Shown piece after piece: positions 27,917-62,160 of a stretch of DNA of 64,000 nucleotides. The position numbers were made by a program, and so were the translations under genes. The notes beneath the pieces were generated by a model. It saw only the letters and a list, made by a program, of their open reading frames with translations. It was not told where the DNA came from and ran no database searches. How positions within the stretch are numbered: the stretch's first letter is position 1; each line of letters starts with the position of its first letter. Source of the DNA: Sipunculus nudus (taxonomy: Eukaryota > Annelida > Sipuncula > Golfingiida > Sipunculidae); the NCBI GenBank assembly GCA_026874595.1, contig CM049306.1:19337019-19401018 (forward strand), in the 5' to 3' direction.

Positions 27917-30153
27917 AGCTAAGCTGACTGTAAGTCATTTGAGCTATAGCCATCACCCTTTGTCTGGCGTCCGTCCGGCCGTTAACAGGGCACAAATCGT
28001 AACCGTTAAACCTAGAAACTTCTTACTGTACATCCAGGGAGGTCCTGGGCAAATCTCCTTGGAAACCCGAAATTAGGTCATGGTGACCTATATTTTGTGA
28101 CCTACGGGCCAAAAACATGATTTTGAGCTCCCACACAGTCAGACGGGGCACAAATAGTATCCATTAGGCCTAGAAACCTCTAACCGGACATTTTGGGAGA
28201 TCCTAGGCAAATGTCCTTGGAAACCAGAAACTAGGACACTGTGACCTATATTCTGCGACCTATAGGGAAAAGATGTCACATGAGCACCCTGAATGTCAGA
28301 TGGGGACAAATAATATTTGTGAGGCCTAGAATCTTCTTACACAATATCCAGGAAGGTTCTAGGCAAATCTCCTTGGAAACCCGAAATTAGGTCATCGTGA
28401 CCTATATTTTGTGACCTACAGGCTGAAAACATAATCTCGAGCACCCAGACAGTCAGACGGGGCACAAATTGGATCCATTAGGCCTTGAGACCTCTTACCT
28501 GACATTTCGGGATATCCTGGGCAAATGTCCTTGGAAACCTGAAACTAGGACACTGTGGCCTATATTCTGCTACCTATAGGGAAAAGATGTCATATGAGCA
28601 CCCTAAATGTCAGATGGTGACAAATCGTGTCTGTCAGGCCTAGAATCTTCTAACACAATAACCTTGGAGTTTCTAGGCAAATCTCTTTGGAAACCCGAAA
28701 TTAGGTCATGGTGACCTATATTTTATTACCTTAGGGCCAAAAACGAGGTTTTTTTTTTTAGCATCAGACAGTCGGACAGGGCACACATTGAATCGATAAG
28801 GCCTAGAATCCTCCAAAGTGACATTCAGGGAGGTCCTAGGCAAATATTCTTGGAAACCTGAAATTAGGTCATGGTGACCTATATTTTGTGACCTACAGGC
28901 CGGGCACATGATTTCGACCACCCTGATTGGGACAAATCGTATATGTGAGGCCTAGAATCTTCTAACTCAATATCCTAGGATTTTCTAGGCAAATCTTCTA
29001 GGAAACATGAAATTAGGTCATGGTAACCTATATTTTGTGACCTATGGGCCGAAAACATGATAGTCAGGCAGGGCACACATTTTATTTGTTAGGCCTATTA
29101 TCTTCTAATGTAACATTCGGAGACGTCCTGGGCAAATGGCCTTTGGAAAACTGAAATTAGGTCACCATGACCTATATTTTGCGACCTTTAGGAAAAGAAG
29201 TCATATAAGCACCCAGACAGTCAGTCAGGGCACACATTGTATCCATTCGGTCTAGAATCTTTTAACACAAAATTCAGGGAGGTCCAATGGGCCGAAAACA
29301 TGATAGTCAGACAGGGCACACATTTTTTTTTGTTAGGCCTATAATCTTCTTATGTTACATTCGGAGACGTCCTCGGCAAATGTCTGTGTAAAACTGAAAT
29401 TAGGTCACCATGTCCTATATTTTGCGACCTTTAGGAATAGAAGTCATATAAGCACCAAGACAGTAAGTCAGGGCACACATTGTATCTATTAGGCCTAGAA
29501 TCTTCTAATGTAATATTCTGAGATGTTCTTGGCCAGTGTCCTTGGAAAACTGAAATTAGGTCACCATGACCTATATTTTGCAACCTATCAGAAAAGATGT
29601 CATATAAGCACCCAGACAATAAGAGAGGGCACAAATAGTATCCATTAGGCCTAGAATCTTTTAGCATAAAATTCAAGGAGGTCCTAGTCAAGTGTCCTTG
29701 GAAACCTGAAATTAGGTCATGGTGACCTATATTGTGTGACCTGTGGGCTGAAAAATGGTTTTGCCACCGCGACAGACAAGGCACAAATTGTATCCATTAG
29801 ACCTAGACTCTTCTAACATGACATCTAGGAAAATCCTTGGCAATTCTCTTTAGAAACCTAAAATTGGATCATGGTGACCTACATGCTGCTAGCTATGGAC
29901 CAGAAACATGATTTTGAGCACCCAGACAGACAGGGTACATATTGTATCTATTTTACTTGGAACCCTCTATTGAGAAATCCAGGGGAGTCCTGAGCAGGTC
30001 TCCTATGAATCCTGAAATTTTTATTTTCTGTCCATTTTTCAACACTGTAACTTCAGCCATAGGCTATTCTTACAGACAATAAATAAGATTAATAAAAAAT
30101 AATGAGCACCTAGCCAAAATTAGCTGAGCGTCATGGCCCATGGGCCACTTGTT
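27917..30153 (+). mobile_element. 2.2-kb element made largely of a 156-bp tandem array
   Basis: The element starts CAGCTAAGCTGACTGTAAGT, then a TTTGTCTGGCGTCCGTCCG block, and ends TAGCTGAGCGTCATGGCCC, then ATGGGCCACTTGTT. Between these ends about 12-13 diverged units repeat. The landmark GACCTATATTTTGTGACC falls at about 28,085, 28,243, 28,399, 28,557, 28,713, 28,876, 29,025, 29,169, 29,412, 29,568, 29,724 and 29,877. Most spacings are 156-158 bp. Longer and shorter gaps mark indels; the 243-bp gap holds a truncated extra unit. Related copies lie at 32,630-33,275 (+) and 50,880-51,510 (-). The layout (unique ends, a core of ~160-bp repeats, microsatellite beside it) resembles bivalve pearl/Helitron-derived elements; that comparison is from memory. 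Confidence 0.8.
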
Positions 30154-32629: not shown

Positions 32630-33275
32630 CTTTTTAGCTCAGATGACTTTCAGTGTAGCGATCACTCTTTGTCCGTCGTCCGTCTGACCGTCCGTAAACA
32701 AGGCACAAATTGTAAACGCTGGATCCTGAATCTTCATATTTAATATCAAGGGAGGTCCATGAAAAATCTCCTTGGAAACTTGAAATTAGGTCTTTGTAAC
32801 CCATATCCTTCGAACTATGGGGTTCAGAAATACCTAAAAGAACAATTAAAAATTTTGTACAAAAGCTCCTGCATCTGAACAACTAATGCATTGATCACCA
32901 TGAATCTTTGTATGCGTATTCATCATGGAGTGTTTATGTCAGTTGCTGCAGACTGGTGGAGCCACCTGGAATTTTCGAATTTTTACACATTTTGTTCTCT
33001 ATTTTTGAAACCTTCCAAGCTTTGGTCGTCTGTTTACAGGGCACAAATCATAACCATTGAACTAAGAATCTTCTAACTTGACATCCAGGGAGGTCTATGA
33101 AAAATCTCCTTGGAAACCTGAAATTTGGTCTCTGTTACCCATATCCTCCAAGCTATGCTCCAAGCTATGCTTCTGTTGAATGGGAATACCACCTACAAAA
33201 TTTGGCATTCAGATGATAAAATTCCTTTTTTGAATGTCTTCCTAGTCAGTTGAGTGTCATGACTTATGAGTCACT
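32630..33275 (+). mobile_element. Short copy of the 156-bp-unit element
   Basis: It starts TTAGCTCAGATGACTTTCAG, continues TTTGTCCGTCGTCCGTCTGA, holds about two units with GGCACAAAT and CTCCTTGGAAAC blocks, and ends GTCAGTTGAGTGTCATGAC before GAGTCACTTGTTTTT. This reproduces the start, unit and end of the larger element at 27,917-30,153 with fewer units. A different sequence is inserted at about 32,830-33,010. Confidence 0.65.
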
Positions 33276-33279
33276 TGTT

Positions 33280-34315
33280 TTTATTATTAAATTATTAATA
33301 TAACTAAAAGACTAATCCTCCTTTGGGGTGTTCATTTGGGTTATGACCCAGCAATGACAACCCTGAAGGGTTGCCAAGAGTGTTGTTAAATGTTTGCCGT
33401 GACAACCTGTTGGTTGTCATGGATCTATCAAGGTCATCCGTCTTGCTTGTTTAATGCAGTCCGCTCTATGGTATGTTTATTTGCGCTATTACTATTTCAT
33501 TATATAATTTTTTTCTTAGAAAAGGAACACAATCACCTTAGAATCTTTTTCAACCAATCCTTCCACATAGCACAAACAGGGCTTGAAGTACATGTGTTTT
33601 AACTGTCATTGTATAAGGGGTGAACGAAAGAAGCCTGTGTTGTGAAAAGTGACACACATTTGAATTGATAGATAGTATACAATAGAAGACAAAAGAAGTA
33701 GCTGAAATACATTTTGTGCATTTTTATGGGGTTTTTTTTCATTTAAATGTCTCTTATATTATGTAGGCAATAAATAAAAACAAATTCTTAGAGTATGTTT
33801 ATGTTTACAACTGTTGTAATATTAGTCCTTCACTGCTGAGTGATATCAATTTAAAATTAAAATACCTGGTTTATATAAAATTATTTTTACGTGTATCTTT
33901 AATAAATCCAGTTCTGTGATATTGCAGAGTTTTATAAGCCACGATGTAGAAGTTATTTTCAGCTTTCAGAATATGTACATTTCAAGTGGGCCCTAGCAAC
34001 TTTTTGTGTAATATTAAATATAATGTTTAAAAGAAAATAATAAAAGGATTATTGGTTGTTGATTTTCTTTATGAAGCTTCAAGTACACTATTCTTCCAAT
34101 GAAATTATGGATGTTATAATCAGCGTTTGTACAGGAATATATTTGGTTCTTTGGTAAGTTTGATTGAAAAAATTGAAATAGAATACATAATGGAAAAATA
34201 CCATTAATATAGCTATATACTTTTTTTATACCTCATCAATTTATCATCATCAAGTGTGCATTTAGGCTGTTGAGTGGAGTAGCCATACTCTGTCAATATT
34301 TCAATAAAGTGGCAT
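33280..34315. other. Intergenic DNA, no supported gene
   Basis: Contains two small hairpins near 33,348-33,420 (TGACAACC...GGGTTG and GACAACC...GGTTGTC). Nothing else was recognised. Confidence 0.4.
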
Positions 34316-34317
34316 TA

Positions 34318-35260
34318 AATAATTATGCTTCCCCCCAAAGGAGAAAACATGTTGTTTCCAGTACCATCGTCTGTCGTCGTATGTCGTCGTCGTCAGTAGG
34401 ATATCTTGTGAACGCGATATATTTTGAAGGGCTGCATAATTTTTCAAAAATTTGTAACACTCATTGTTCATTAAAAAGCTCGGAATAGTTCGAAATCTAT
34501 GAACCTTGACCTTCAACTTCAAGGTCAAATCTGCCGAAATGTGATTTTTTTTTCAAAACTTTTGAAGTATTAATCATTTCGTCCTCAACTTTGGTACACC
34601 AATTGTTCCTACCAAGTTCTCTAAGGAATTCGAAACCCGAAGACCTTGACAATGATTTTCAAGGTCAAATCGGCCTAATTAAAGTTTTTGTCTTGTGAAC
34701 GCGATAACTCTTGAAGGGCTGCATATTTTTTCCAAAGTTTTAAACACTCATTGTTCCTACCAAAATCTCTGACGAGTTCGAAACCCGGTGACCGTGACCT
34801 TCATCTTCATCTTGAACCCCATAACATTTAAAGTTTTCACATTTTTGCCTCAAATTTGGTACAGAAATTGTTCCTACCGAGTTCTCGGACGAGATCGAAA
34901 CCCGGAGACCTTGAGAAGGATCTTCAAGGTCAAATCGGGAGAATTTTAATTATTGTATTGTGAACTTTTGAAGGGCTGTATATTTTACTCCAAAATTGTA
35001 AACACTTGTTGTACCTTCCGAACTCTCTTATGAGTTCGAAACCCGGTGACCTTGAACTTCATCTTCAAGGTCAAATCTGCCGAAATATAAAATTTTGTAA
35101 ACCCTATAACTTTTAAAGTATTTCGCATTTTGTCCTCAAATTTGACACACCAGTTCTTTCTGCCTAAATCTCATCGGAGGTCGAAAATAGGTGACCTTGA
35201 CCTTGACCTTAAGGTCAAATCTGCTGAAATCTAGATTTATTGTTTTGAGGTTGTGCATGT
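34318..35260 (+). repeat. ~140-bp tandem array with TTCAAGGTCAAATC motif
   Basis: A left end with TCGTCTGTCGTCGTATGTCG is followed by about six diverged units, each with GAAACCCGGTGACCTTGA, TTCAAGGTCAAATC and CTTGTGAACGCGATA blocks. Landmarks fall near 34,503, 34,643, 34,790, 34,908, 35,049 and 35,190. A decayed single-unit copy lies at 44,570-44,760. This is a third family of array-bearing repeats in the window, unrelated in sequence to the 156-bp and GGCGCC families. Confidence 0.7.
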
Positions 35261-35264
35261 TTTA

Positions 35265-36876
35265 CCCCTTATGTTTTGGGATGCAAATAGGGTAGACATA
35301 TTTGATTTTGCGCTGCAATAAAAAAAAAAAGCTATTCTAGTTTTTTTTTTTTGTGATCTTGCCAATGTTTGACAAAGTCACTGGATATGTATGGAATACT
35401 GCGGAGTTGTGTATTAACTCGCAACATAAAGGCAAATTTCATTACTGAAGCTTGTATAGAAGTAGAACATGGTGTAAAGTTTTATAAAATTGCGATATTG
35501 ATTTTTACTATTTTCTGACAGTTTGATAATTTTATGGAAGGATTTTATACTTTTTTTCAATATAAGCCACAGGGGCAGCAGCTGCTACTGTTTCTCCAAT
35601 TACAGGAATCCTAGGACAAATTTGTGGAGGCTCCTGAAACGGCGTAAAATTAGATTGGGGACATGGAGAAGCCACCCAGGGATACAGGCAATGGCAAGTT
35701 TTACTATACATTTGTTTGTTTTTCAGTTAAAATATACAAAATAAAATTCCTTAGCCAGGCACAAATTTGACCATAGTGAAATTTAATGGTCCATTCACAT
35801 GTGCAATAGTATGTGTACCTCCATCACACCCACACAGGTGCTTACAAGGGGTATACATATGTATATATATGTAACCTCGATACACATCTTCACAGTATAA
35901 AAAGGCCTAATGTTCTCAATGGTAGATCAAGAAGCCATGGGGGTATTTTCAGGGAAGGGTGTTTCTCTACCAAGGTTCTTGGGTGTGTAAAAGGCTGCTT
36001 TCCTTATTCGATGTGGATTTATTCTTACAATTATCATTATAAAACAAACATTTGAAGCCATTTTTGGTATAAAATAACAGTAGCCTGATTGTTCTTACTC
36101 TAGAAACCAAGGGGGGGGGGGATGCCTTACAACTATGAACAAGTTTAACCTGCATGATTAATACATTTTGTGCATTTAGTGACCAGGTTCACAATGTTCA
36201 GGAAATAACTGTCATTTTGATATTTTTTAATTGAAAACTGCAATTTATTTTATATGGTGAACTTTGCAACACTGACACATTTTGTGATACCATTTTGAAC
36301 TGAGTAGAACTTGAACTTGACTGGCAGTGGTGTAGGAAGCAGGGGTCAGAGGGGGTATCACTTCTACCGTAACAATATTGAGGAGTGGGGCAGAGATATC
36401 ATCCTCCCCACCCTATATTTTGAACAAACTGATTTTAAAATTATCATACCTGATAAAAAGCATGCAGACTCTTGCAGATGAGCATTCAAACTATACCTAC
36501 AATTAAATAAATTTTACGAAATTTTTTGAAAATAGTATTATAGATCATAAATATTAATATGGATTATCCTACTTATTTATATAATTTGTTTATACTTTAA
36601 AAGTATTGTTGCCCCCCCCCCCCCGCAACCCTGATACGTGTTTCTAAACACTTGTACAATGACTGATGCCTATCCAGATGTAACCCCCATCCCCGCCCCG
36701 AAAAAAAACCTTGGCACAAACCTCCCCTTTATACTTCTCTGACAGACCATGTTCCCCCGCCCCCGAAATAATGAATTTGTTCCTACACTCCGGAATGGTT
36801 AGGGTAGATGTATATTTTGTGTTCTACAATTCCGCTTGATAAAAATCATTTGAATTAACTATTCTGTTTGTTAAAA
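35265..36876. other. Upstream region of the NLR gene
   Basis: No firm coding exon. No clear TATA box stands upstream of the ATG at 36,877, and a 5' non-coding exon could lie here unseen. A short + stretch after CCACAG at about 35,570 reads GAAAATVSPITGILG before a stop, but it has no partner. Poly-G (36,111-36,120) and poly-C (36,612-36,624) tracts are present. Confidence 0.35.
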
Positions 36877-37518
36877 ATGTCTCTTCTAGTTGAAGAAGAA
36901 TCAGCCCACCAGAGGATAATAATTGAAAACAGATTATATCTGGTTGAAAGCATTGACGTGTTAGACACCTACATTTTGGACCAGCTGATTCAAGACCATG
37001 TTCTTACTGTGCCGCAGGTAGCAGCAATTAAGGTAAGAATCAATACAGTCTTAAGAGATCCATTAAAGCTAGGGATGAGGACTATCATGGTAATTCACAC
37101 AAAATTCTGCCTGATAAAGTGGATTGAAAATTAACTTTTAATTAAGTCTGCCGCGTCATTTCCTGTCTTCAGGAAATGCAATTCTAATGGCTATACCTCA
37201 TTACCTTAAAGGACCACTACGTGATATGATAATTAAAGAAAAAATAATGAACAAAAAATGTTTGGTTCCTAACATTTAATAAAAAGGTTAAAGAATGGCA
37301 TTAAGACTTGTCGTGTTAGTATGCAGAATTAAAGGAAAATGTTCAGAAAAAAGTCTTAAAACGCCCTGTTCATTTTCAGGAGGGGAATCGTACCAATAAC
37401 CAGAGAATATCGGCCCTGCTGGATCAGTTGTACACAAGAACTGCTGATGACTGGAAAAGGTTTAAACAATGTCTCCTACAGCATGGGCATGACCATGTAG
37501 TTCAGAAAATAGAAGAAG
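36877..37518 (+). other. CARD-encoding exons 1 and 2 of the NLR gene
   Basis: Residues about 5-98 form a CARD split by a 347-nt phase-0 intron after AAIK. Exon 1 carries the first helices (ENRLYLVESI, then LDQLIQDHVLT, then PQVAAIK). Exon 2 carries RISALLDQLYTR, DDWKRFKQCL and VVQKIEE. The pattern R.yLvesid, iLdqLiq..vLt, IK, LLdqL, F..F...L is that of caspase-recruitment domains rather than death or pyrin domains. The donor AAG|gtaaga and the acceptor TTTTCAG|G are strong. CARDs act by homotypic contact with other CARD proteins. Confidence 0.85.
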
Positions 37519-40500
37519 GTAACTGCCTTAAGTAAAACCAGAAAGCACTTAAGCCCCTATCTCATTGAGCTGTGACTGTTGGCAACTAGTTGGAGATGCA
37601 TAAATTGGTACCTTAAACGTCACACGAACTCCCTGTGAAATTTGTGGAAAAAATAGTTTGCATGTATGTCGTGCTACAGTTACACAACAATCACGCACGT
37701 TTTTCACTTGATTTATTGTCTCCAATCAATCATAATTTAGACAACTAAACAACTTACAAAATTGTCTCACGTTTCTTACACTTTCTGATTCTCTGGACTA
37801 TTTTTGTCGCACCAATTTTTTTACTTATTCAGGGAGGCCCTGCAGCTCAGGCGAGGAATCTGATAACCCCCACTATCCAGTGAATGTCATTTACAATTAC
37901 TTGGCAACTGTCTCAGCCCGATGAGATAATAGCTCTGGTAGAGCTCATACCTCTGCCAGTTCAAAACTTCCTACTGGACCTGCTTTACTGATTAACCAAG
38001 GTTAACCTCCCATTACTGACATGCCAAGTGTAAGGTTAAACTCCCGTTACTAACATGCCAAGTGTAAGGTTAAACTCCCGTTACTGACGTGCCGAGTGTA
38101 AGGTTTAACTCCCGTCACTGACGTTATATAACCAAGTGCAAGATTAAACACTCGCTACTGACTAACCAAGTGTAAGGTTAAACACTCATAACTGACCAGC
38201 CAAGTACAAGGTAAAAAAACTTATTACTTACTCACAAAGTGCAAGGTAAAACACTCATTACTGACTAACCATGTGCAAGGTTAAAGACCCATTACTGACT
38301 AACCAAGTGTAAGGTTAAAGACTCATTACTGACTAACCAAGTGTAAGGTTAAAGACTCATAACTGACTAACCAGGTGCAAGATTTTAACACTCACTACTC
38401 ACTAACCAAGTGTAAGGTTAAGCACTCATTACTGACTAACCATGTGCAAGATTAAACACTCATTATTGACTAACCAAGTTTAAGGTCAAACACTCATTGC
38501 TAACTAACCAAGTGCAAGGTAAAAACTTGTTGCTGACTAACCAAATGCAAGATTAATAACTTATTACTGACTAACCAAGTGCAAGATTAAACACTCATTA
38601 CTGACTAACCAAGTTTAAGGTCAAACACTCATTACTGACTAACCAAGTGCAAGATTTAGCACTCACTACTGACTAACCAAGTGCAAGATTTAACACTCAT
38701 TACAGACTAACCAAGTGCAAGGTTTAACTCCCATTACTGTCTTACTTAGAACCAGGTGCTTGCTAATATATATGTACAAGTTGTGAATACAGCCTTGTAT
38801 ATTTGTTTCCTGATCCACAGTAAAATTAAATGGATTCTTCCATGGACGGAACCTTCTAAAATGTTCTGCAGATATTGGTTTGATAGTTACGGTGTAATCC
38901 TGCTAACAATCAAATTAACAAACAGATAGGAGCGATAGATTAAAACATAACCTTCGTGGGAGAGGTATTAGGTCAAAGGGTAATTTGAACTGCTCCTTGT
39001 TGGAGAATATGCCAGGCTATATGAATTCAGTTCACATATGCTATATATCATGTCATTTGGATTAGATAATATCGAGTTTATCTTCAGAAAATTATATAAA
39101 AAAAATAAAAATTATACGCTAATTCTTCAAAGTTGTAGTGATTTTTTTTCGCATCCATCTTTCAGTATATACATTTAATGGAATTATGTTAAATATGTTT
39201 ATGTTAATGAGTTCAATACTTTAAGTGTTTTAATTTTACGAGAAAAAGGGATCAGCAAAAAGTGTCTTTAACACTCTTAATAGTATAAACACCTTCTGGT
39301 AAGGATTGAGCATTACTGTGGAGTACTGACTTTACAATGCTGAGTAAACATTATATATTCATGCATTATATGTGTATATATATGTCCATTCAATGCCTTC
39401 TCACGTTTACAGAAACCAGAAGAATTTATGGAAGCGACAAAGAGGTGTGTGAAAAAAAATGCTATATCCTGATTTTCTAAATACATAACTGAGGACTGAA
39501 AGAAAGATAACAGTTATTTAATAAACTATATATGTTATATCTGTTGTGTTTCCATAGGAGATTCAATTAAATGTTTATATGCTAGCAAAAAAATATTAAA
39601 ATAGAACCTCTTTTAAACATACCAGGTTTTATACAATTAATTTCTTTGACAGCTTCAGCTAGATCCCTTGTTTATAATGAGGACTATTACTTTTTTTACA
39701 AATGAGAAAAAAAAAACCGGAATTTGTTTTCCAACACTATCTGGCTTAAAGAGCTGTTCAAATATAGAATACCTAGTGCTTGTATTATTAAGCTGAAACA
39801 TTATATACTGCTAGTACTCCTTAGATCAGCTTTGCTGGTAGGCTGAGTAAGTTCTATGATTAAATATATATTAATGGTCACTGTGTTTATTAAAATTTAT
39901 ATAAAGCATGTCTCCCACGTTACTCTATGTATGTTCACCAATCGATGGACAGAGGCTGCACTTCTCTCAGTCACACAGAGAACATGTAATCTCACCAAGC
40001 TATGCCCTGTGGTAAGGGTGTCAGAGAAAAGATTCTGATTGTTTTGCCTCGTTCAGGGCAGCCAACTTGAGTGAGAGGGATGTCAGTGGGCTAGGCCACT
40101 TGTGATTGAGGGGTGGCTGCCATATCTATCAAGGGTTCTAGCCGGGGTCCTACCTTTATGTATTACTTGACATCATAAATACTGCTTAATATACCATGTT
40201 ATATTTCATTTCATCATATTTTCCATTCAGATATCGAATGCACCAGGCAGCTGTGTTGTTGGAGCAACAGCTTTAGATCCAAGGATTTTATCTGAGGCAC
40301 CAACTGCAGGTAAAATTACCATAACTTATCTGTCAAAACGCAAATTATCTGTCCAGTGATGTAGTCAAACCCACACCATTTGAGTCTTAGTGCAAGACAG
40401 CGATCAGGCAAATTGAGTCCAAGTCAGAGTCCTTGAAATGTGAGTTTAGGTAACCTTCTTTGAGTCTGAGTCATTTAGAATCTGAGTCCACGTCCAAGTC

Positions 40501-43500
40501 CAATACAAATATTTTTAAAAAAGCAATTTTAAATGGGAACGTCAAATTACCAAGTACATTTTAAAGGCAGTTCACATGTGCCTTTACTAAATTGGTTAAT
40601 TGCATTTATATACGTTTTGTATAAGCTGATGCTGAGAAAGTTTGGTTTGTATAGTGTTATTATTTTGTAATATTATGTTAGTAGTTTGCAATTGCACAGA
40701 AGTCTTTATATATAAAATGAGTTTTTTTTATTGGATTCGAGATGGACTTCTCAAGTCTTTACCTATGAGTCAGAGATCCATAAAAATGGACTTAGTACGG
40801 ACTCAATTACATGTCCGCACTTGAGTCCTACATCACTGAATCTGACATTAAAAATGTGAAAAATAATTAACAAAATCATTTAATATTTGCAGAAATGGAT
40901 TTAGAGAATTTGAGACTCGTAGGATCCTGGCAACGAGAGGTGGCTGACCATTATAGGAAGTATAACAGTTTCATCCATGTTTGTGAGTTTGGGCCTTATC
41001 GGCGCAGAAAGAAAATGGAATCTCTGTACATCCCTCCGGTGTGCTCGGTCCTTGACACTGAGGACAAAACAGAGACTGATATTGGTGATATACACAGCAT
41101 ATTCAGAAACGTAAGATAATCTTGCTTCATCCTCAATATATAAATCACATTTTCAATAACCATTAATTTCTTTCTGTAATGTAGTATACATGAATTTAAA
41201 AATCGATTTCCCTAATATTTCTTCACACATTTCTGTATGACCAAAAGAAATAAAATGTTATTATTTGTTCAGGTCAAAACACAAATTTAGTATCTATAAT
41301 ACTACCTATTACATATATGATAACAGAATTCTCTTTAAGGTTATATGTAATCTTATCCATGGCAGTAATGAACACTTTCATTCTTTAGAATCTATTGGCT
41401 ATACCAACTTACAAAATTGCAAAATATTTCAAATCTCTTATTTATTCAAACTCTCTTTTGTATATATTATTTGTATTTTTTGAAGACTGGGAAGCCAAAC
41501 ACCACATTCATCAGTGGTCTGCCAGGTTCTGGAAAAACAACATTAGTGAGCTGGTGTCTCTCAACTTGGGCTGATCTGGTGCAAACAAAGATAGAATCAG
41601 CGACCCCTGGTGGAGGCAAATGCAGCGACAAGCCCGACTTCATGTATGACCTTATTATATGCATTTCCCTCAGAAACGTGGAGCGCAATGCATCGTTTTT
41701 ACAGACAGTAAAGAAGCAGATTTGGTGTAGCCCAAGTTGTTATCCTGATATTGAACATTTCATCTCAGAAAGCCCGTCAAGGGTGTTGATAATTTTAGAT
41801 GGGTTGGATGAATACAGCCCAGAGGTTTCATCAGAGGTCACAGCCATTATTAAGGGGGAACTCTTTCCAAATGTGTCAAAAATCGTCACTTCACGTCACA
41901 CAAAAGCAAATAGTCCTTCTGATGAACTGGTTCAGTATTATGAGAAACGTGTGCAGATCAACGGATTTGATGACTCCCGCGTCCTCCAATACATGTACAA
42001 ATATAAGGGACTACCTATCAAACACACAGAATCACTGACATCAAAAGGTAGAGCTAACAAAAAGTTTGTTGAAGAACTTTACCAAAAAATAAAGAGAAAA
42101 CACATGTTGCCTGTGTGTCAGGTGCCCCTCCATCTGTGTTTCATATGTCAGCTGGCGGAGGCGGGTGAAGAGATCTGCGCAACAAAAACTCAGTTGTATC
42201 TCAAGATGCTGAAGTACCAGCTAGATAGAAATGTTTCAAAGACTACATCCCCTACAGATTTCACTCTTGATAATATTGAAGTGTACCACAATGATTTAGT
42301 ACGTTGTGGTACGGGTGCATTAGATCTTTTGCGTGGTGAACATAGACGGTTTACGTTTCATAAAGAAACAGTTACAAGTGATGACAGACAGAATTTCATA
42401 GAGAAAGGAAACAAACTGGGACTGATTATTCCAGTTCAGCCTGAACATTTAGGAGACACAAAACTCTACACTTTCAGCCATTTGTCAGTGCAAGAATTTC
42501 TTGCTGGTTATGCAATTGCCCATGATCAAACACAGAGGCAATTATTTATTTCATATTTGACCAACATATTCCGGCTGCACAACAATCGCAACGTTATTTC
42601 GTTTTGTTGCGGTATGTCTGAACAGTGCGGGAACAAGCTTCTCTCACATGCTGTAGAACTTGTCCGAAACAGCAAGGATGAACCAACCGCAGACCAGTGT
42701 CCATGCTTTAACCGGAAGTCCTGGAGCTCGGGGAAGGTCGACTGGGAGGCCAAAGTAAACCTGTCCAAAAACATCAGTTATTTCCTTGCTCAGTGCGTGA
42801 GCGAGTACAAAAATCAGCAAGGATGTGATATTCCTTTGCCAGGTAGCGTAACACTTGATCTCTCGCAGCCCGAGACTCAGGCAATGTTAGCAATGTTGAG
42901 ACACAACAAATCCCAATCGGTGGTGCAGAATGTTGAGATAAGGAATGGTGATCTGAGCGGAGATATATGGGAGGCGGTCATCTCAGTAATACTGCTGCAT
43001 GAACTAGAACTTCTTTATTTGGACGTGGTTAGAATTGAGGACTCCGCAGCACTTGCAGCCAGTATTTGTAACATGACAAACCTGAAATATATGACCCTGA
43101 TGATCACATCCCTGACAGAGACTGACGCTGAACGCATCCTTGCAGCAATCCCCAAACCCGTACAACTTGTAAGATTGAGGCTGAGACATTTCCGCATAAG
43201 TCCCCATGCAGCTGATTTATTATCAGCCATAACAGCATCATGCTCCTGTCTGGTGCGGCTAGATCTAACAGACACCGACCTGTCACTGCTCGGTTCCCAC
43301 GTGACTTCACTCACCACTTCTGAACATCTGGCTCAGCTTGAAATCAACAAGACCAACGTGACTCGAAAACAAATTGAGTTACTCTATGCGACCCTGCCCG
43401 CTCGATGTCCCCGTTTGCTCTTTCTTGACATGGAACACAATGATATATCTGGTATGGGACATCTTGTAGCCGAGGCGGTGTCCCAGCTTCCTTATCTATC

Positions 43501-43855
43501 ATGGCTTAACCTGAGGAACTGTAAAATAACATCAGAGGGACTGTGGCATCTCCTCCAGCACCTACCTGACTCGCTGCGTGTGTTAGATATTTGTTTCAAT
43601 GGCTTCACATATTTCTCCCAGCTGTTACAATGCCCTAACACATTACAACCCCTCCGTTTTCTCTTGTGTAAGGGCTCAGCTGTGCCGGTCGAGCTCATGC
43701 AGGAGCTAGTGCATGTGTGCAAATCGAACCTCCCAGACCTCGTACTGATGTACGACGACAAGTCATACAACACTGGCGAACAAGAACTGAATGCCTTCCT
43801 TGTTGAACACTACACAAAGTTAAATGATCTGATGTCTGGTACCAAAAAATGCTAA
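36877..43855 (+). CDS. NLR-type receptor: CARD, NACHT, leucine-rich repeats (six exons, complete)
   Basis: Exons: 36,877-37,032; 37,380-37,518; 39,413-39,444; 40,231-40,309; 40,893-41,110; 41,486-43,855. All introns are GT-AG, and the phases (0, 1, 0, 1, 0) join without a stop to give 2,994 nt and 997 residues. The start is the first ATG in the CARD frame, with an A at -3. Known of the family: NLRs are cytosolic sensors. The LRR part senses or restrains, the NACHT ATPase drives assembly, and the CARD recruits CARD-bearing adaptors, kinases or caspases. The protein has no signal peptide or membrane segment. Exons 3-5 form a linker of about 110 residues that includes VADHYRKYNSF and MESLYIPP, which resembles the strand just before NACHT in other invertebrate NLRs. 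No canonical AATAAA lies within about 1 kb after the stop. Ligand and partner are unknown. An older copy number or neighbouring paralogue is not visible here. Confidence 0.9.
37935..38968 (+). mobile_element. Dispersed element in NLR intron 2 carrying a 34-bp satellite
   Basis: The left end has CTGGTAGAGCTCATACCTCT and the right end has CTGCTAACAATCAAATTAAC plus TAAAACATAACCTTCGTGGG and AGAGGTA. The outermost TACCTC and GAGGTA are inverted. The same ends occur at 14,465-15,090 and 5700-5781. Inside, about 37,985-38,740, some 22 copies of a 34-bp unit (GACTAACCAAGTGTAAGG, then TTAAAGACTCATTACT) stand head to tail with few indels. It occupies over half of the 1,894-nt intron. Confidence 0.8.
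40354..40838 (+). mobile_element. hAT-like MITE filling NLR intron 4
   Basis: It begins CAGTGATGTAG and ends CTACATCACTG, an exact 11-bp terminal inverted repeat starting with the CAGTG typical of hAT elements. The flanking 8-mers TATCTGTC and AATCTGAC agree at six of eight positions, as expected for an old 8-bp target duplication. The interior is rich in GAGTCC/GAGTCTGAGTC motifs near both ends and lacks a transposase. It supplies 485 of the intron's 583 nt. Confidence 0.75.
41486..43855 (+). other. NACHT-LRR exon (exon 6) of the NLR gene
   Basis: One 2,370-nt exon encodes residues 209-997. The Walker A motif GLPGSGKT lies at 219-226, the Walker B/extended acidic motif LIILDGLDEY at 309-318, and a sensor-1-like VTSR at 342-345. 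A helical-domain proline in VPLHLCFIC follows near 422, and FSHLSVQEFLAG at 538-549, the conserved His-containing segment of the winged helix/HD2 border. From about 710 to 960 there are roughly eight LRRs of about 27-28 residues in the ribonuclease-inhibitor style (for example LVRLDLTDTDL, LLFLDMEHNDIS, LSWLNLRNCKIT, LRVLDICFNGF). All catalytic motifs look intact, so the ATPase is predicted to be functional. The exon starts at ACT after TTTTTTGAAG; an in-frame ATG at 41,417 lies in the intron and is not the start. Confidence 0.92.
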
Positions 43856-44153
43856 TCAGACAAGAGAACACATCAAACCTAGCGTAGTAAAGATTTGGAT
43901 TATCCATGGCTGAAGTGAAATAGTTCTAGGGATTTTCTCTCTCTGTCTTCGATAAACAGATTTTTATAGTAAACTGCATATTAAGCCAGAATACATAGTC
44001 ATGCCAAGGACACCCTTTTGGGTTACTGCTTGATAACTAAATACAGTTACATAAATTCGTATTTTATACTTCACAGTGTCAACTATATGATTGACTGTTA
44101 ATAACAGGTTTAAACGTGCTATAACTCCCCTTTTTGTGAACAACCCAACGTAC
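43856..44153. other. 3' flank of the NLR gene
   Basis: Presumed 3' UTR. No AATAAA is seen here; the first such hexamers on the + strand are near 44,888 and 44,929. Confidence 0.35.
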
Positions 44154-56419: not shown

Positions 56420-58990
56420 TAAGTTCATGGATTTATTCATTCACACTAGAAACAATTGAATATATATATTAAGACAAGCAGATACCAATATAACTTCAAC
56501 AAAGCCGTATTGTTTTGCAAGAAAATTAAGCGCTTCATAGGATTACTTTAAAGATGACCACTTTTATCTGAAGAAAAAATGCGGGTATATATTATGACAA
56601 TTATAACGTTTCAACTGCCAAAGCTTTCTGTGTAGCGTTATGATGAACGATATTTCCAGGGCCGTAAAAAGTGTGTTACCTTTAATTGAGAAAGGGGTGC
56701 TTGTGACAATGCACGCTGCTCCTAAGATGTGTGGTTTCTCATGAGATATTTTGGCTATAAAACAAGGATCTGCTTTAAAATTAAGAAAATATGCTGTAAG
56801 GTGAAACCTGAATGCTAAAGGATTTCTGTCTGTTTAAAGTTATGTTGTATCAACAAACCTGTACAGTTTTTTTTATCATTTTAAAAGGACTTTATCTCTG
56901 TATCAATTGCAAATTTATATAACAAGTAACTAAGACAAACATGCGCAGCGACAGTGCAGGCCCGGGCGTTCATTTATCAACGTTAAGGGGAAGGGTACTG
57001 GTATTGCTTGGATATACATGCTGTATACTAACCTAATTTTACACGAGGTTATTCATGCACGTGCATACAGGTAAATAATCTTTGATCTTTTATTGCTTTT
57101 GCCGTAGCATACAGACTTCTTCCATGATGTTTCTTCCATGTATACGCAAGTCTGTGTCGAAGGGGGACTATTTTAAATGTTATAATTGAGCAACAGAGTA
57201 GAAAAGGTTAGAGAAATATATTGACTCACAAGCGTAACATAAGCGCATACATAAAATTAAAAAAATACATAGACCAGAATAAAATTTATTGAATGCCGAC
57301 AGAGAAGTAATTTGGGTAAGCCGAGCTCCCCTCAACTCAAAGAGTTAACTCTATTACGTCAGTAAGCAAATATGCCGGCGACTGACTTGCATGGTACCAT
57401 AGCAACAGAGAGATATCCAGGGAAAGGGTGTGAGCTGAATATTTGATATAGGCAGTACATTATGTGTGGTCCCTGTTTAAATTCTCTACATGCAAAACTT
57501 CTTGGCATGCGGTTGCCTGGAAATGCAACACAATCGACCTGGGTGTAACTATAACTGTACAATGGTACAATGGAAAACAGATATTCTAAACGCATGCATC
57601 AACGGGTTGACACTGCAGCTATTCTAGCCTTGTAACCTCTAAAGGTTTGTCATTGTGTCTAATAAGTTTGTAATTGAGTCTATTAGAACGCTGACTAGAT
57701 TGTGCACCAAAGCGTGCATCGCAGCAAAAACCATGCCCGTAAGTGTACCTAGAAACAACCGATGAGTAATAAGGGATCCCTTTGTGATAAACTGTCAATA
57801 ACCACTCTGGGGATATTATGAGCGGAACAAGCTAAAAATTCTTAAAGGAGTTTAAATGCAAAACAAGAGTGTTTAATGAAGGTCTCTAATCAACATGAAG
57901 AAGGAGGAACAATGGAATAAATAATAGGGGAGAAAACAAGAAAATAGTCCAGGGGTTCACAGGGCTTACACGTCAACGCTGGCCTAGAAAAAAAATCAAC
58001 ATGCGTGCGTGCTAAATATTTTTATGGATATGCAGATAAAAGAATAGTCATAGCTCCCTGAATTAAGTACTGCTCTGCATATGATGGGCAGTGGGTTTAA
58101 AATTGGCAAGGTGAACGGGGACAAATCCGGGCTATTTGTCTCTGCACTGGGATCAGGCATGCGTGACTGCTGTGTAGATATGGCCATGGTTAAGTGCCTT
58201 TTGGCCCTAGGCATAATCTGATTTTATGGCCCACGTGTTTCGGTAGCTCCATTTTCATTCATCGGATGTACCAGCCGTATATGTCTCAGAGGAAACAGAC
58301 TGTTTTATCTTGTAATTGTGCCCTACTCGTTTGACTTGTCCCATCAATGGAGAACACAAAAATGGGTTCACCCAAAAGATTCGTTAGATGGAACATATAT
58401 TTGCTTACGTCTCTTAAATAACTATGGCGTGCTATTTATTTTATACAGAATTTCCAAAACATACGCTGAAAAATGATGTGAGCTAAAGCTTAGGCCTAAA
58501 ACTAAAACGCCAGTGCCATTTGTTTTAAGTGCTTTTGAATCCTTTTTCCATGCACAAATATAATCCCTCGGTTACGTGCATCTGTGAACACCTAAAGCGT
58601 ACACATATACAAAGTCTGATATCACCGACAATGTCAGAGTCATTTGTCTGCAGCTCATGACCAGTGCTCATTCACTTCCGGTGCAGCCTCTTCCCGGGCC
58701 CACTACAAGAGAGCCTGTTACTCGAGAATAAAAACATGGCTCTGATTGGTTAGACATTGACTTATCTTATTCGATAAAGCTTTGTACATTCAGCCATTGG
58801 ACTGTAAATGGCCGGGCATTAGACTCAATCCAGTTTTAGTCATTTTGCAATTTGCTTGTCACCAGGTCATTCCTGACAGGAAATGACTGGGCACCTATAT
58901 TTGATGGAGTTACCTTGCTTGAGGAAATTCTAGCGTGTGCCAAACAGGACTTCCGTTTTTTTTTTAAGTTTCTTAAAAAAAGCGTCCAGT
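56420..58990. other. Probable intron and intergenic DNA, no supported gene
   Basis: Only the untested candidate exon at 58,654-58,745 (+, acceptor GTCTGCAG) was noted. The rest holds no array or recognisable element. Confidence 0.3.
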
Positions 58991-58999
58991 AACAATTAC

Positions 59000-60170
59000 A
59001 TTGAGAGTTGCAGAGCGCCAATGTGTGTCTGGGTAAGAGATTAACCTGGGAGGAGCGAGCGCACCCTTGTGGTCAAAAGTTTGGCAATGAGTATTCGCGC
59101 GGACGGCGGTCTTTCCGGAACTCAAACTCACAAACAAGTCACACGTCCAGCGCATTCGGAACTCCTCGGCCGAATCCGTTGGCTTCTAGCCTCGGATGAA
59201 TGTATGGCCTAACGATACTTCTACAAGTTTGGAGAATTTTCCCGGAAATCCACCGGGTTGCCATTTTTACTGACTCGTTTAACAAAAGATCACAGTTCCA
59301 CAAAAATAGATTGATTTGCCATAATCATATGTATTATATGGGCTTGATATGTCGCTAAACATCAACAATTACCAGGTTCCGACAGTAGAAAGTTCAGTTT
59401 ATAACAAATGCCCCATACATCGCCCACACGGGGTATACTTCTAGGCGTGAATTGTATCCTCGAGCGGCCCAGATCAGTATACATGGGATTTTCCATTTGG
59501 ATCAGTGTTATCTTAAAGCTTAAAGGTAGAATATGTGAGGATTGGCAGTATCTGTACACAAAATACATTGTTTTGCTATTAAAAAGCGCACAACAGATGT
59601 GCGGTTGACCTGCCATGGCCTTGACCTTGCCGGAATACTTTCCTTGGTCTCTATATATATCCCGTAGGCGAACCGCGTGACTGCGCTCCGGACTCATACA
59701 CGCATGCGCATTTGCCCTTGCTTGACCATTTCGTCTGCTGTGTCCGGGTCAGCACTGTTGCCCAAGCACAGGCTGATGAAGAAAATCTTGCTAAAACGGT
59801 CTAAATTGCCGAAATTGCAAGTATAAAATGGCTTTCCGTCTTGAAACACTGTCGTTCACAAGATCGGGTTCGGCTCTCGATTGGCATGGCTGGGTCTCCG
59901 CTGCTGGGATCGGTTGAGAGAATGTGGGTTGCTTCTGCCTTTGTGGCTGTGGGTGCTGTGGCTTTCCTTCAAAGTCACCAGAGCGGAATATACAGTAGCG
60001 GTCTCTCGCGGCTTTTTGCTTGGTTTGGTGTAGCATCGCGTCTGATGGCTCTGAATACATGCTTAAGGAGCGCGCAGGGCTGAGGTCTTGAGCACAGCAA
60101 CCTGTAGCTGCTCGATGAACGAAAAATTCTTCTGCTCTGCGCAGGCACACTGTTTATTGCCAAGTTGAAA
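59000..60170. other. GC-richer, CpG-containing stretch with small open frames on both strands
   Basis: It may hold promoters or unrecognised first exons. On the minus strand TATATATA (59,651-59,660) precedes an ATG at 59,616 in a strong context (GCCATGG) with 84 open codons to 59,362. At 59,841-60,150 both strands are open: the + frame contains MWVASAFVAVGAVAFLQ, and the - frame is Gln/Pro-rich. Without conservation data none is called as a gene. Confidence 0.3.
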
Positions 60171-60174
60171 CAGG

Positions 60175-61840
60175 TACACAGAGGCTGCGACAGGGACCGC
60201 GCCAGTCATATAAACCCATCAACGTGAAAATATAACAAAGGCTATTACATAAATAATTTATAAAATGAGATATAATAACATCAACAAAAATTCCTTGAGT
60301 TCACGATCCTTACACTCAGTGTTACTATTAATGTGAGAAGGGTTTATTTAACGCTGACATTTTTGTGCGTTTCGAATTACTCAAAAACTATTTATCAAAG
60401 ATATCGTTATTGACGTTTATTTTTCATCAACTTTTACTGTATTCTCTGAAATTACTGGAAAGATCTCACAAAAACCCGCGGATTTCACGGACCGCCCATA
60501 CTTGAAGTACCGTGATAAAAGAATCCGTGAGGGTGCAGTTTAACAGCCTTGATTGAACATGGAAGCTGCATGGGCATTTGATAACCTGACCATATTTGTT
60601 TGCCCTGAACTAGCACAGAAGTACTAGGCGAGTGACTCCGGATTCCAGGAAGACTGTTACTGAATACTTATTGACATGTATCTAAATCATGCACTTTCAC
60701 AATGGTGCTTTGGATGGGCAAACGCCCACACATAGTAAAGGGAATCATTTTAGTTGCAACTCCATTTAGTACATTTGTATTTACCAAGGAAACAGGAATA
60801 TGTACCCGGAGTGGTATCTCACTCCTTCATATTTGCAGTTCATTTTTAGCCCTTGTAATCCATTTGGTTAATCATGTTGCACATGTCTTCTAGTCAGTGT
60901 ATTGACTTTGTTGGTACACACAAGTAGAAAGCTACATAAAACACACAAAAAAAGTATTCTTACGGCAGTTAAACATCGGATGAACAAGAATAATGGACAT
61001 TATTTAAAGAGCCATAGTTTGGTAAACCAAACGTCTTTATAATAAGAGTCAAGGTTTGGTTGATCAAACATCAAGACGAATGGTCATTATTATATCCGTC
61101 CCACTTGGTTGCACTTGGTTGGTGCATACAATTTGGCACTACAGTCGATGTTAAAACTCTGTTAAAAATGTTATAGAACATACACTTCATGTTAAAATAT
61201 CAAAATGGAACGTAACATTATATCGTCATGTTATATACATCTGTTCTTCATGATATTATAGTAAGTACATACATTTATATGGGTGTGAGCCGAAAATTCT
61301 TTTTTTTTCAGAGTTACAATTGTGGAAGTGTAATTTTAACTCTGATTGGATTAAGAACACACAAAGTCATTTCATTTCCCTTAAAAGATACAATGTAATA
61401 AATGTTGGATGTTGGCTTTACCCGTAAAAAATGGGAATGCAAGAGGTTAAAAAATCTTACAAGATATACATGAGAGCCTTCTATTATGATTACAGAAATG
61501 CTATCATAGTTAAAAAATACTTGTTAAAATCTAAATACATTCCATTACGTCACACTTGCAGCACTCCTGTAGTCATACCATAAGATGTTACCCTGGCAAC
61601 TTGTCACTTATTTGACCTTTATTGGGGGGCTCCTAAATTAAAAATTTGAAATAACTAATTAAGTCTGATGGAAATCAACCAAAAGGAATGTTAGTTGTGA
61701 TTTAATGTAGATTATAATTATATTGACCTACAAACTGATTTCATGAATTTGCAACATTACACAATATATCATTAATGTATCTATATATTGTTCAATATAT
61801 TGATCCACTGAAGAGGATCAATATGATTATTGATGTTTTT
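60175..61840. other. Intergenic DNA, no supported gene
   Basis: AT-rich. A small inverted pair (GGTAAACCAAACGTC / AAGGTTTGGTTGATC) lies near 61,020-61,070. Confidence 0.4.
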
Positions 61841-61842
61841 TT

Positions 61843-62160
61843 TCGATAACTGATTATCGATTATCGATGGCTCTGTTTATAATTGATATGATATTCGTTA
61901 GCTCTGATCATGATGTATACGATTATCGAAGGCTCTGATCATAACTGATACGATATTCGTTGGCTCTAATTATAATTGATACGATTTTCGATGGCTCTGA
62001 TCATAATTCGTACGATTATCGATGGCTCTGATCATGATTGATGCGATTATCGATGGCTCTGATCATAATTGATACGATTTTCGATTGCTCGGATCATAAT
62101 TGATACGATTATCGATGGATCTGATCATATTTGATACGATTATTGATGGTTCTTTTCATT
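61843..62160. repeat. 31-bp satellite with ATCGAT and TGATCA palindromes
   Basis: About ten head-to-tail copies of a 31-bp unit (GATACGATTATCGATGG, then CTCTGATCATAATT). Most units keep both the ATCGAT and the TGATCA core. Divergence rises toward both ends. Confidence 0.9.

Follow-up and report, generated by a model that had tools for sequence, protein, structure and literature searches.

An NLRC-type receptor gene of Sipunculus nudus, with evidence for diversifying selection on the predicted ligand face of its recent paralogs

Introduction

Proteins in which a CARD, a NACHT domain, and leucine-rich repeats (LRRs) follow one another have already been described from lingula, oyster, abalone, and tubeworm (PMC11508797); in the passages considered here, the same report predicts NLRC-caspase-1-gasdermin E signaling in Brachiopoda, Mollusca, and Annelida and finds neither ASC nor PYD outside Craniata. 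Other surveys, likewise drawn on in part, give typically 5 to 20 NACHT genes for molluscs and >200 for the pearl oyster (PMC9646362), four NACHT proteins, one of them with LRRs, for Aplysia (PMC9334734), 20 and 68 NOD-like receptors (NLRs) for two tubeworms (PMC8476170), and no reported NLRs for a mussel transcriptome (PMC3308963). CARD-NACHT-LRR genes are thus known in lophotrochozoans, and the question addressed here is whether they encode true recognition receptors. We take it up with a gene on the forward strand of a 64,000-nucleotide stretch of the Sipunculus nudus genome (contig C1, positions 19337019 to 19401018, in a 1.43-Gb assembly of 153 contigs), referred to below as the window. 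An earlier sequence-only reading of the window had called this gene a candidate for an under-described sensor, a description that the above-mentioned publications, with their NACHT gene counts for molluscs, make outdated.

The lophotrochozoan NLRC proteins have the same domain order as the window protein, and direct CARD-CARD recruitment of a caspase-1-like protein has been proposed for them; the likeness is one of architecture, and the published account covers presence, structures, and trees, LRR exchange and selection on the concave LRR face not being among the results in the passages considered (PMC11508797). The pearl oyster expansion is likewise large and clustered and includes 19 death-domain-NACHT-LRR genes, but its N-terminal domains are death or HEPN domains, unlike the CARD found here, and concave-face selection is unreported in the portion of that study considered (PMC9646362).

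Vertebrate NLRP3, NLRC4, and NOD1/NOD2 share with the window protein a NACHT domain with GxPGxGKT and DGLDE motifs, a motif of the FxHxSxQEF type, and ribonuclease inhibitor (RI)-like LRRs, but the similarity is too low for orthologue assignment. Vertebrate LRRs are usually encoded with one repeat per exon, whereas in the window gene the NACHT domain and all of the LRRs lie in a single exon. In plant NLRs and the variable lymphocyte receptors (VLRs) of jawless fishes, the solvent-exposed residues of the strands are hypervariable while the LRR framework is conserved, and exchange between copies occurs. The family described below appears to resemble them in both of these respects but differs in possessing a NACHT switch, where plant NLRs use NB-ARC, and in having its diversity between germline copies, where VLRs assemble somatically. 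We found no report of concave-face selection in a protostome NLR family in the parts of the literature searched; the word "selection" is absent from a sponge NLR paper (PMC12909245), and the NLR passages considered of an oyster paper (PMC4346834) are silent on it.

Our analysis suggests that the window gene probably encodes a functional cytosolic NLR of the NLRC type, in which the LRR face would bind a ligand, the NACHT domain would oligomerize, and the CARD would recruit a caspase, and that selection on concave residues, together with exchange of LRR domains, maintains the differences among the family copies.

Domain architecture of the window protein

The CARD (residues 15 to 98; Pfam PF00619, 36.3 bits, E = 5.6e-9, cutoff 23.9, searched with the whole protein) and the NACHT domain both score above their Pfam cutoffs and are followed by nine RI-like LRR motifs in one in-phase model (Table 1), which bears out the intact tripartite gene proposed by the sequence-only reading. 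The complete Walker A and B motifs, the VTSR sensor (IVTSRH, residues 341 to 346), and the FSHLSVQEF motif that it had listed are all located in the protein. On these sequence features we regard the gene as real and its predicted product as an intracellular CARD-NACHT-LRR receptor of the NLRC type.

The protein shows 9 instances of a strict LRR pattern, where shuffled sequences average 1.24 and 0 of 20000 reach 9, and 13 instances of a looser pattern, against 5.5 in shuffles (fraction, 0.005); start 712 was dropped as overlapping 715, and start 741 was taken from the looser pattern. The Pfam LRR models score below their cutoffs in the whole protein; against the LRR part alone LRR_6 barely passes (23.5 bits; cutoff, 23.4), as a sum over stretches none of which passes singly, and in the paralog L015 LRR_4 reaches 30.7 bits (cutoff, 27). 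Among the profiles anticipated earlier, CARD and NACHT were thus recovered clearly and LRR_6 marginally, but NLRC4_HD2 gave a weak match at the expected place (11.0 bits, E = 0.62) that falls below its cutoff of 33.1.

Searches against the PDB with the NACHT and winged-helix part recovered NLRP3 first (E = 0.003 to 0.04) and NLRC4 at E values of 0.3 to 1.1; the NACHT part also matched 5irm/5irl (E = 0.09), labeled "uncharacterized protein," which we take to be NOD2. These matches to NLR structures are weak, and we treat the Pfam NACHT match as the firm evidence. Four capsid chains matching the NACHT part at E values of 1.2 to 1.3 were taken as chance. The CARD is closest to APAF1 (E = 2.6e-4) and then caspase-1 (E = 0.27), setting aside two TAL-effector chains, which were rejected as summed repeats without any single stretch passing; for the LRR part the best match is LRRC34 (E = 1.5e-5), the next being a TIR-domain protein.

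Although APAF1 provides the best credible PDB match of the CARD, it has NB-ARC and WD40 domains, neither of which is listed for the window protein. The 12 Pfam models listed for the latter at E ≤ 1 include no TROVE, WD40, NB-ARC, or HEPN model, which leaves it without any mark of an APAF1-like, TEP1-like, or HEPN-NACHT protein. On these grounds we rejected an APAF1-like CARD-NB-ARC-WD40 protein (neither NB-ARC nor WD40), a TEP1-like NACHT protein (neither TROVE nor WD40), and a bivalve HEPN-NACHT protein (no DZIP3/hRUL138-like HEPN model).

A family expanded in clusters

The sequence-only reading had presented a single sensor candidate; the gene is instead one of at least 25 family loci in a genome with at least 99 NACHT matches. 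The latter figure comes from a search of the genome (98 of 417 candidates scored) in whose listing the window gene is absent; 55 of the 99 listed matches lie on the 61-Mb contig C17, and these include members of the window family as well as genes sharing no more than some 20% identity with the window gene. A search with the whole protein returned at least 52 matches (46 of 528 candidates scored), corresponding to the window gene and at least 24 other loci, which are 41 to 69% identical to it over the matched part. Eighteen of these 24 lie on C17 (6.4 to 8.5 and 41.7 to 41.9 Mb) and six on C15 (56.4 to 63.1 Mb), with no other family match listed on C1.

By our own criterion, exon 6 is open and carries Walker A in 17 of the 24 loci, and 7 are partial or interrupted; the 17, selected for having Walker A, were aligned, and the 7 were dropped before the counts given below. 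All 17 carry a GxPGxGKS/T Walker A and a DGLDE or DALDE Walker B. A FastTree phylogeny holding genes of this genome only was made from the 17 paralogs, the window gene, and seven general NACHT genes that share about 20% identity with the window gene (an eighth, L003, with an open frame of 442 amino acids [aa], was dropped). In it the window gene takes a place between L038 and the expansions on C15 and C17. We identify it as the C1 member of a family expanded in clusters on C15 and C17. Relatives of exon 6 were found in neither viral contigs, GTDB genomes, nor phages, and within the window no paralog was found beyond the gene's own exons, two further matches (E = 7.5 and 7.9) being taken as chance.

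Selection on the NACHT domain and the predicted LRR concave face

In the NACHT domain, the ratio of nonsynonymous to synonymous divergence (dN/dS) of the window gene is 0.10 to 0.16 against L015, L016, L019, and L022, with dS saturated against L024, L028, L029, and L038. For the LRRs, the register was fixed from the window protein prior to comparison, and five concave positions were predicted in each of the nine repeats; all nine motifs are in register in 16 of the 17 other sequences, L038 having six. Counts were made over six nonoverlapping pairs of recent paralogs, leaving out the overlapping pair L021/L015 as well as pairs of near-identical copies within L024/L025 and L029/L030/L032.

At the concave positions of the six pairs, dN is 0.296 and dS is 0.066 (ratio, 4.46), with dN exceeding dS in 2000 of 2000 codon bootstraps, a figure that overstates the certainty because the pairs share conversion history. 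The ratio is 0.07 at buried positions (dN, 0.009; dS, 0.123) and 0.69 in the rest of the LRR. Differing residues number 119 of 270 in the fixed register, against 50 and 44 at shifts of −1 and +1 and 82 at the best other shift (+2), and 0 of 5000 random position sets reached 119. Broken down by offset, +1, +2, +4, +6, and +7 differ in 31, 50, 67, 54, and 19% of the comparisons, and the leucine offsets 0, 3, 5, and 10 in 6, 2, 0, and 0%. When all 70 close pairs are taken together, the ratio is 2.34 at concave positions and 0.54 in the rest of the LRR, and in 69 of the 70 dN exceeds dS at concave positions. Codon changes at positions 1, 2, and 3 in five pairs number 59, 53, and 19 at the concave residues and 191, 142, and 354 in the rest of exon 6. 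These counts support strong diversifying selection on the predicted concave face in the recent relatives, with the NACHT domain under purifying selection.

Probable exchange of LRR domains between copies

Synonymous divergence between L022 and L023 is saturated or >1 up to residue 448, 0.08 to 0.55 over residues 449 to 768, and about 0.06 over residues 769 to 928. L028 is 39% identical in the NACHT domain to L018 and L016, against 94 and 95% in the LRR framework and 56 and 60% at the concave residues. The same pattern recurs in L024/L019 (49% in NACHT against 92% in the LRR framework) and is less marked in L029/L024 (42 against 76%) and L022/L019 (64 against 77%). Because the LRR framework is near-identical between copies whose NACHT domains have diverged, we infer exchange of the LRRs, and the best account seems to be that LRR domains were exchanged between copies and that the ligand face was then rediversified.

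Gene structure

The earlier model joins six exons in phase, with GT-AG at all borders, into a protein of 997 aa. Its in-phase joining and borders stand; exons 3 and 4, however, are doubtful and dispensable in frame. Together they measure 111 nucleotides, so that skipping both keeps the frame and yields 960 aa, whereas skipping either alone breaks it. The junction of exons 1 and 2 is supported by the CARD itself, since the joined exons score 41.4 bits and exon 1 alone 19.5 (PF00619, cutoff 23.9); exon 2 alone has no PF00619 match at E ≤ 1 and matches only Atypical_Card, at 15.6 bits. With a codon table trained on the same gene, the codon score is 117.7 for exon 6 and 15.4 for the open frame ranking next in the window.

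In the 1.5 kb upstream of each paralogous locus, CARD exon 2 is clear in L019 and weak in L038, and DNA further upstream was examined for four paralogs, L016, L019, L024, and L038 (pieces L040, L039, L041, and L042, respectively). L038/L042, 41% identical to the window gene in exon 6, has both CARD halves, split at the same place and scoring 31.8 bits when joined, and its exon 2 can meet exon 5 over 566 bp in phase 1. In L019, 278 bp, counted in the sequence, lie between the second CARD exon and exon 5, both in phase 1, making a direct join possible. Homologues of exon 5 were recognized in L016, L019, L024, L025, L026, L034, and L038. Comparison with paralogs, which here concerns splice sites and phase only, thus backs the first junction, the join of exon 2 to exon 5, and the exon 5 donor. 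Because exon 2 can join exon 5 in phase in L019 and L038, four exons and 960 residues are probably the better model, the earlier one containing two exons too many.

The contrary view, that the 997-residue protein is the true product and that exons 3 and 4 were recently acquired by the window copy or form a joint cassette, draws on their good splice sites: among the 3847 exons possible between exons 2 and 5, a simple splice-site score built from general consensus frequencies places them at ranks 3 and 12, and of the 39 pairs that score as high or higher they alone are open. Yet exon 2 can meet exon 5 directly and in the same phase in two paralogs, and exons 3 and 4 sit in a stretch of the window swollen by a 34-bp repeat array. 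We consider this view unlikely, while giving it some weight.

Proposed mode of action and alternatives

In the working of the receptor as we envisage it, the concave LRR face would bind a pathogen-derived or danger ligand directly, as the diversifying selection in recent relatives suggests. Ligand binding may then release the NACHT switch, permitting ADP/ATP exchange and oligomerization, which is consistent with Walker A/B, sensor, and FxHLSxQEF motifs that are intact and subject to purifying selection. Once brought together, the CARDs would nucleate a CARD filament to which a CARD-caspase would be recruited with no need of an ASC adaptor; cleavage of gasdermin might follow, and the copies would stay different through selection on concave residues and LRR domain exchange between paralogs. 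Whereas the recognition role is supported by selection among the relatives, the signaling steps are predicted. Direct CARD-caspase recruitment is the likeliest output on the combined indications of the APAF1- and caspase-1-like CARD, the predictions for related proteins in the passages considered of PMC11508797, and the caspase-domain and gasdermin matches in the genome. The latter comprise 83 caspase-domain matches (145 of 145 candidates scored), some with internal stops, and one gasdermin locus on C16, where two matches lie 3 kb from each other (2 of 2 candidates scored). As separate observations, many dispersed caspase-domain matches, several with internal stops, occur on C15 between 2.0 and 48.1 Mb, and compact caspase-domain clusters occur at C4:43.23-43.28 Mb and C10:21.74-21.75 Mb.

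Several results weigh against this reading. The NACHT matches to NLR structures are weak, and the best PDB match of the LRRs, LRRC34, is not an NLR. Among the paralogs, L019 shows the second CARD half only, exon 1 not being found in L039; the second CARD half of L024 in L041 is weak (16.2 bits against the cutoff of 23.9); and no CARD half was found upstream of L016 in L040. No CARD-caspase was located when the CARD and caspase listings were compared by eye for adjacency, with 150 of 650 CARD candidates scored and these filled by a repeated element. The concave dN/dS of the window gene itself ranges from 1.16 to 1.60 in comparisons with six relatives and is 0.55 with L029 and 0.42 with L038, so that strong selection is shown for the younger relatives rather than for the window gene. 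Over the whole LRR, dN clearly exceeds dS in one of seven pairs (L016/L017, in 989 of 1000 bootstraps), the other six giving 845, 676, 657, 585, 509, and 43 of 1000; the excess is confined to the concave positions, which were predicted from motifs rather than from a structure. The ratios, finally, are Nei-Gojobori counts of our own making, rather than codon-model estimates, among copies subject to gene conversion.

With regard to output, the CARD might recruit a kinase or another CARD adaptor rather than a caspase, as in an NF-kB-type receptor resembling NOD1/NOD2. NOD1 has the same domain order as the window protein, and 5irm/5irl, presumably NOD2, are among the NACHT matches. The CARD, however, matches APAF1 and caspase-1, with no NOD or RIPK2 among the 19 chains listed at E ≤ 10. 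RIP2, ASC, and caspase-1 are reported missing in the mussel transcriptome, in the portion of that paper considered (PMC3308963), which counts against this output and against a caspase-1 route alike. We judge an NF-kB-type output to be the less probable one, though a reasonable minority view.

For the origin of the diversity, one might propose an anticipatory germline repertoire like the VLRs, in which complete LRR domains are swapped as cassettes between NACHT genes and a mutational process is aimed at the strand codons, so that codon positions 1 and 2 change and position 3 rarely does. If this proposal, which we think distinctly unlikely, were true, one animal would carry dozens of intracellular CARD receptors with differing ligand faces on one framework.

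It is more doubtful still that relaxed constraint or patchwork gene conversion, and not selection for new ligands, underlies the concave excess. The LRR framework is indeed common to copies with diverged NACHT domains, and the same codon variants recur across copies; but dN at 4.5 times dS is beyond what relaxation can give, and conversion alone should bring synonymous changes too, yet dS is 0.066 at concave codons, whereas the adjacent buried codons have a dS of 0.123 with a dN of 0.009. That the window gene is a decaying or silent copy, as the lack of other listed family matches on C1 and the 7 partial or interrupted loci among the other 24 might suggest, is very improbable given a frame open throughout and an exon 6 dN/dS of 0.23 against L015 and 0.27 against L019.

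Features of the window and a dispersed CARD element

Table 1. Features of the CARD-NACHT-LRR gene (positions in the window; residues of the 997-residue model)
Feature	Position	Strand	Remarks
Exon 1	36877..37032	+	start codon and first CARD half, residues 1-52; split and phase 0 the same in paralog L042
Exon 2	37380..37518	+	second CARD half, to residue 98; ends in phase 1; homologous exon in L019 and L038
Exon 2 homologue of L024			weak; upstream, in piece L041
34-bp tandem repeat array	37997..38739	.	21.6 copies; between exons 2 and 5
Exon 3 of earlier model	39413..39444	+	32 nt; doubtful; in frame only with exon 4; no counterpart seen in L019/L038
Exon 4 of earlier model	40231..40309	+	79 nt; doubtful; no counterpart seen in L019/L038
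Exon 5	40893..41110	+	pre-NACHT stretch; begins in phase 1; homologous exon in 7 other loci
Exon 6	41486..43855	+	NACHT, winged-helix/HD2 region, LRRs, stop codon; uninterrupted (2.37 kb)
NACHT domain	41501..42007	+	residues 214-382; PF05729, 60.9 bits, E = 1.8e-16, cutoff 26.7
Walker A GLPGSGKTTL	41516..41545	+	residues 219-228
Extended Walker B VLIILDGLDEY	41783..41815	+	residues 308-318
FSHLSVQEF	42473..42499	+	residues 538-546; winged-helix/HD2 border; similar motif in aligned paralogs
Nine RI-like LRR motifs	43004..43684	+	residues 715-941; predicted concave positions hypervariable between recent paralogs

Six-frame Pfam searches of window positions 1 to about 58.9 kb (less the + strand of 36877 to 43856) and 57901 to 60899 listed only Orf78 (E = 0.0066) and Crinivirus_P26 (E = 0.038); in the window, Rfam gave nothing at the gathering threshold and no tRNA was found. 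No second CARD was listed upstream of the gene, at 33001 to 36890. Degenerate repeat arrays with periods of 156 to 158 bp and longer, about 69 to 91% alike, occupy 27988 to 29733, and a 31-bp tandem repeat of 9.5 copies occupies 61858 to 62153.

Elsewhere in the genome, CARD-bearing open frames occur in a dispersed element found at C5:42523300-42532400 (L043) and at about 50 further places on C1 to C13 and C15 to C17, with none listed on C14; the listed copies are alike in that their CARD scores and frame lengths are nearly equal. Among 9 of the 12 listed frames of the 9.1-kb L043 piece that were searched, four pass the CARD cutoff (265, 217, 148, and 387 aa), three fall below it, and two have no match. 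Small CARD frames repeated in tandem separate the 217-aa frame, which is CARD-RING, from the 387-aa frame, which is CARD-CARD-RING; a search of viral contigs revealed nothing related to the latter. Judged by these frames, the element looks like a mobile or virus-derived one that could interfere with CARD signaling.

Implications

An arms race involving direct ligand recognition is expected to leave this signature: position-exact diversifying selection on the concave LRR face combined with purifying selection on the NACHT domain. The variable residues would name the binding face, and the closely related copies, built on one framework, may serve as natural variants for ligand screens.

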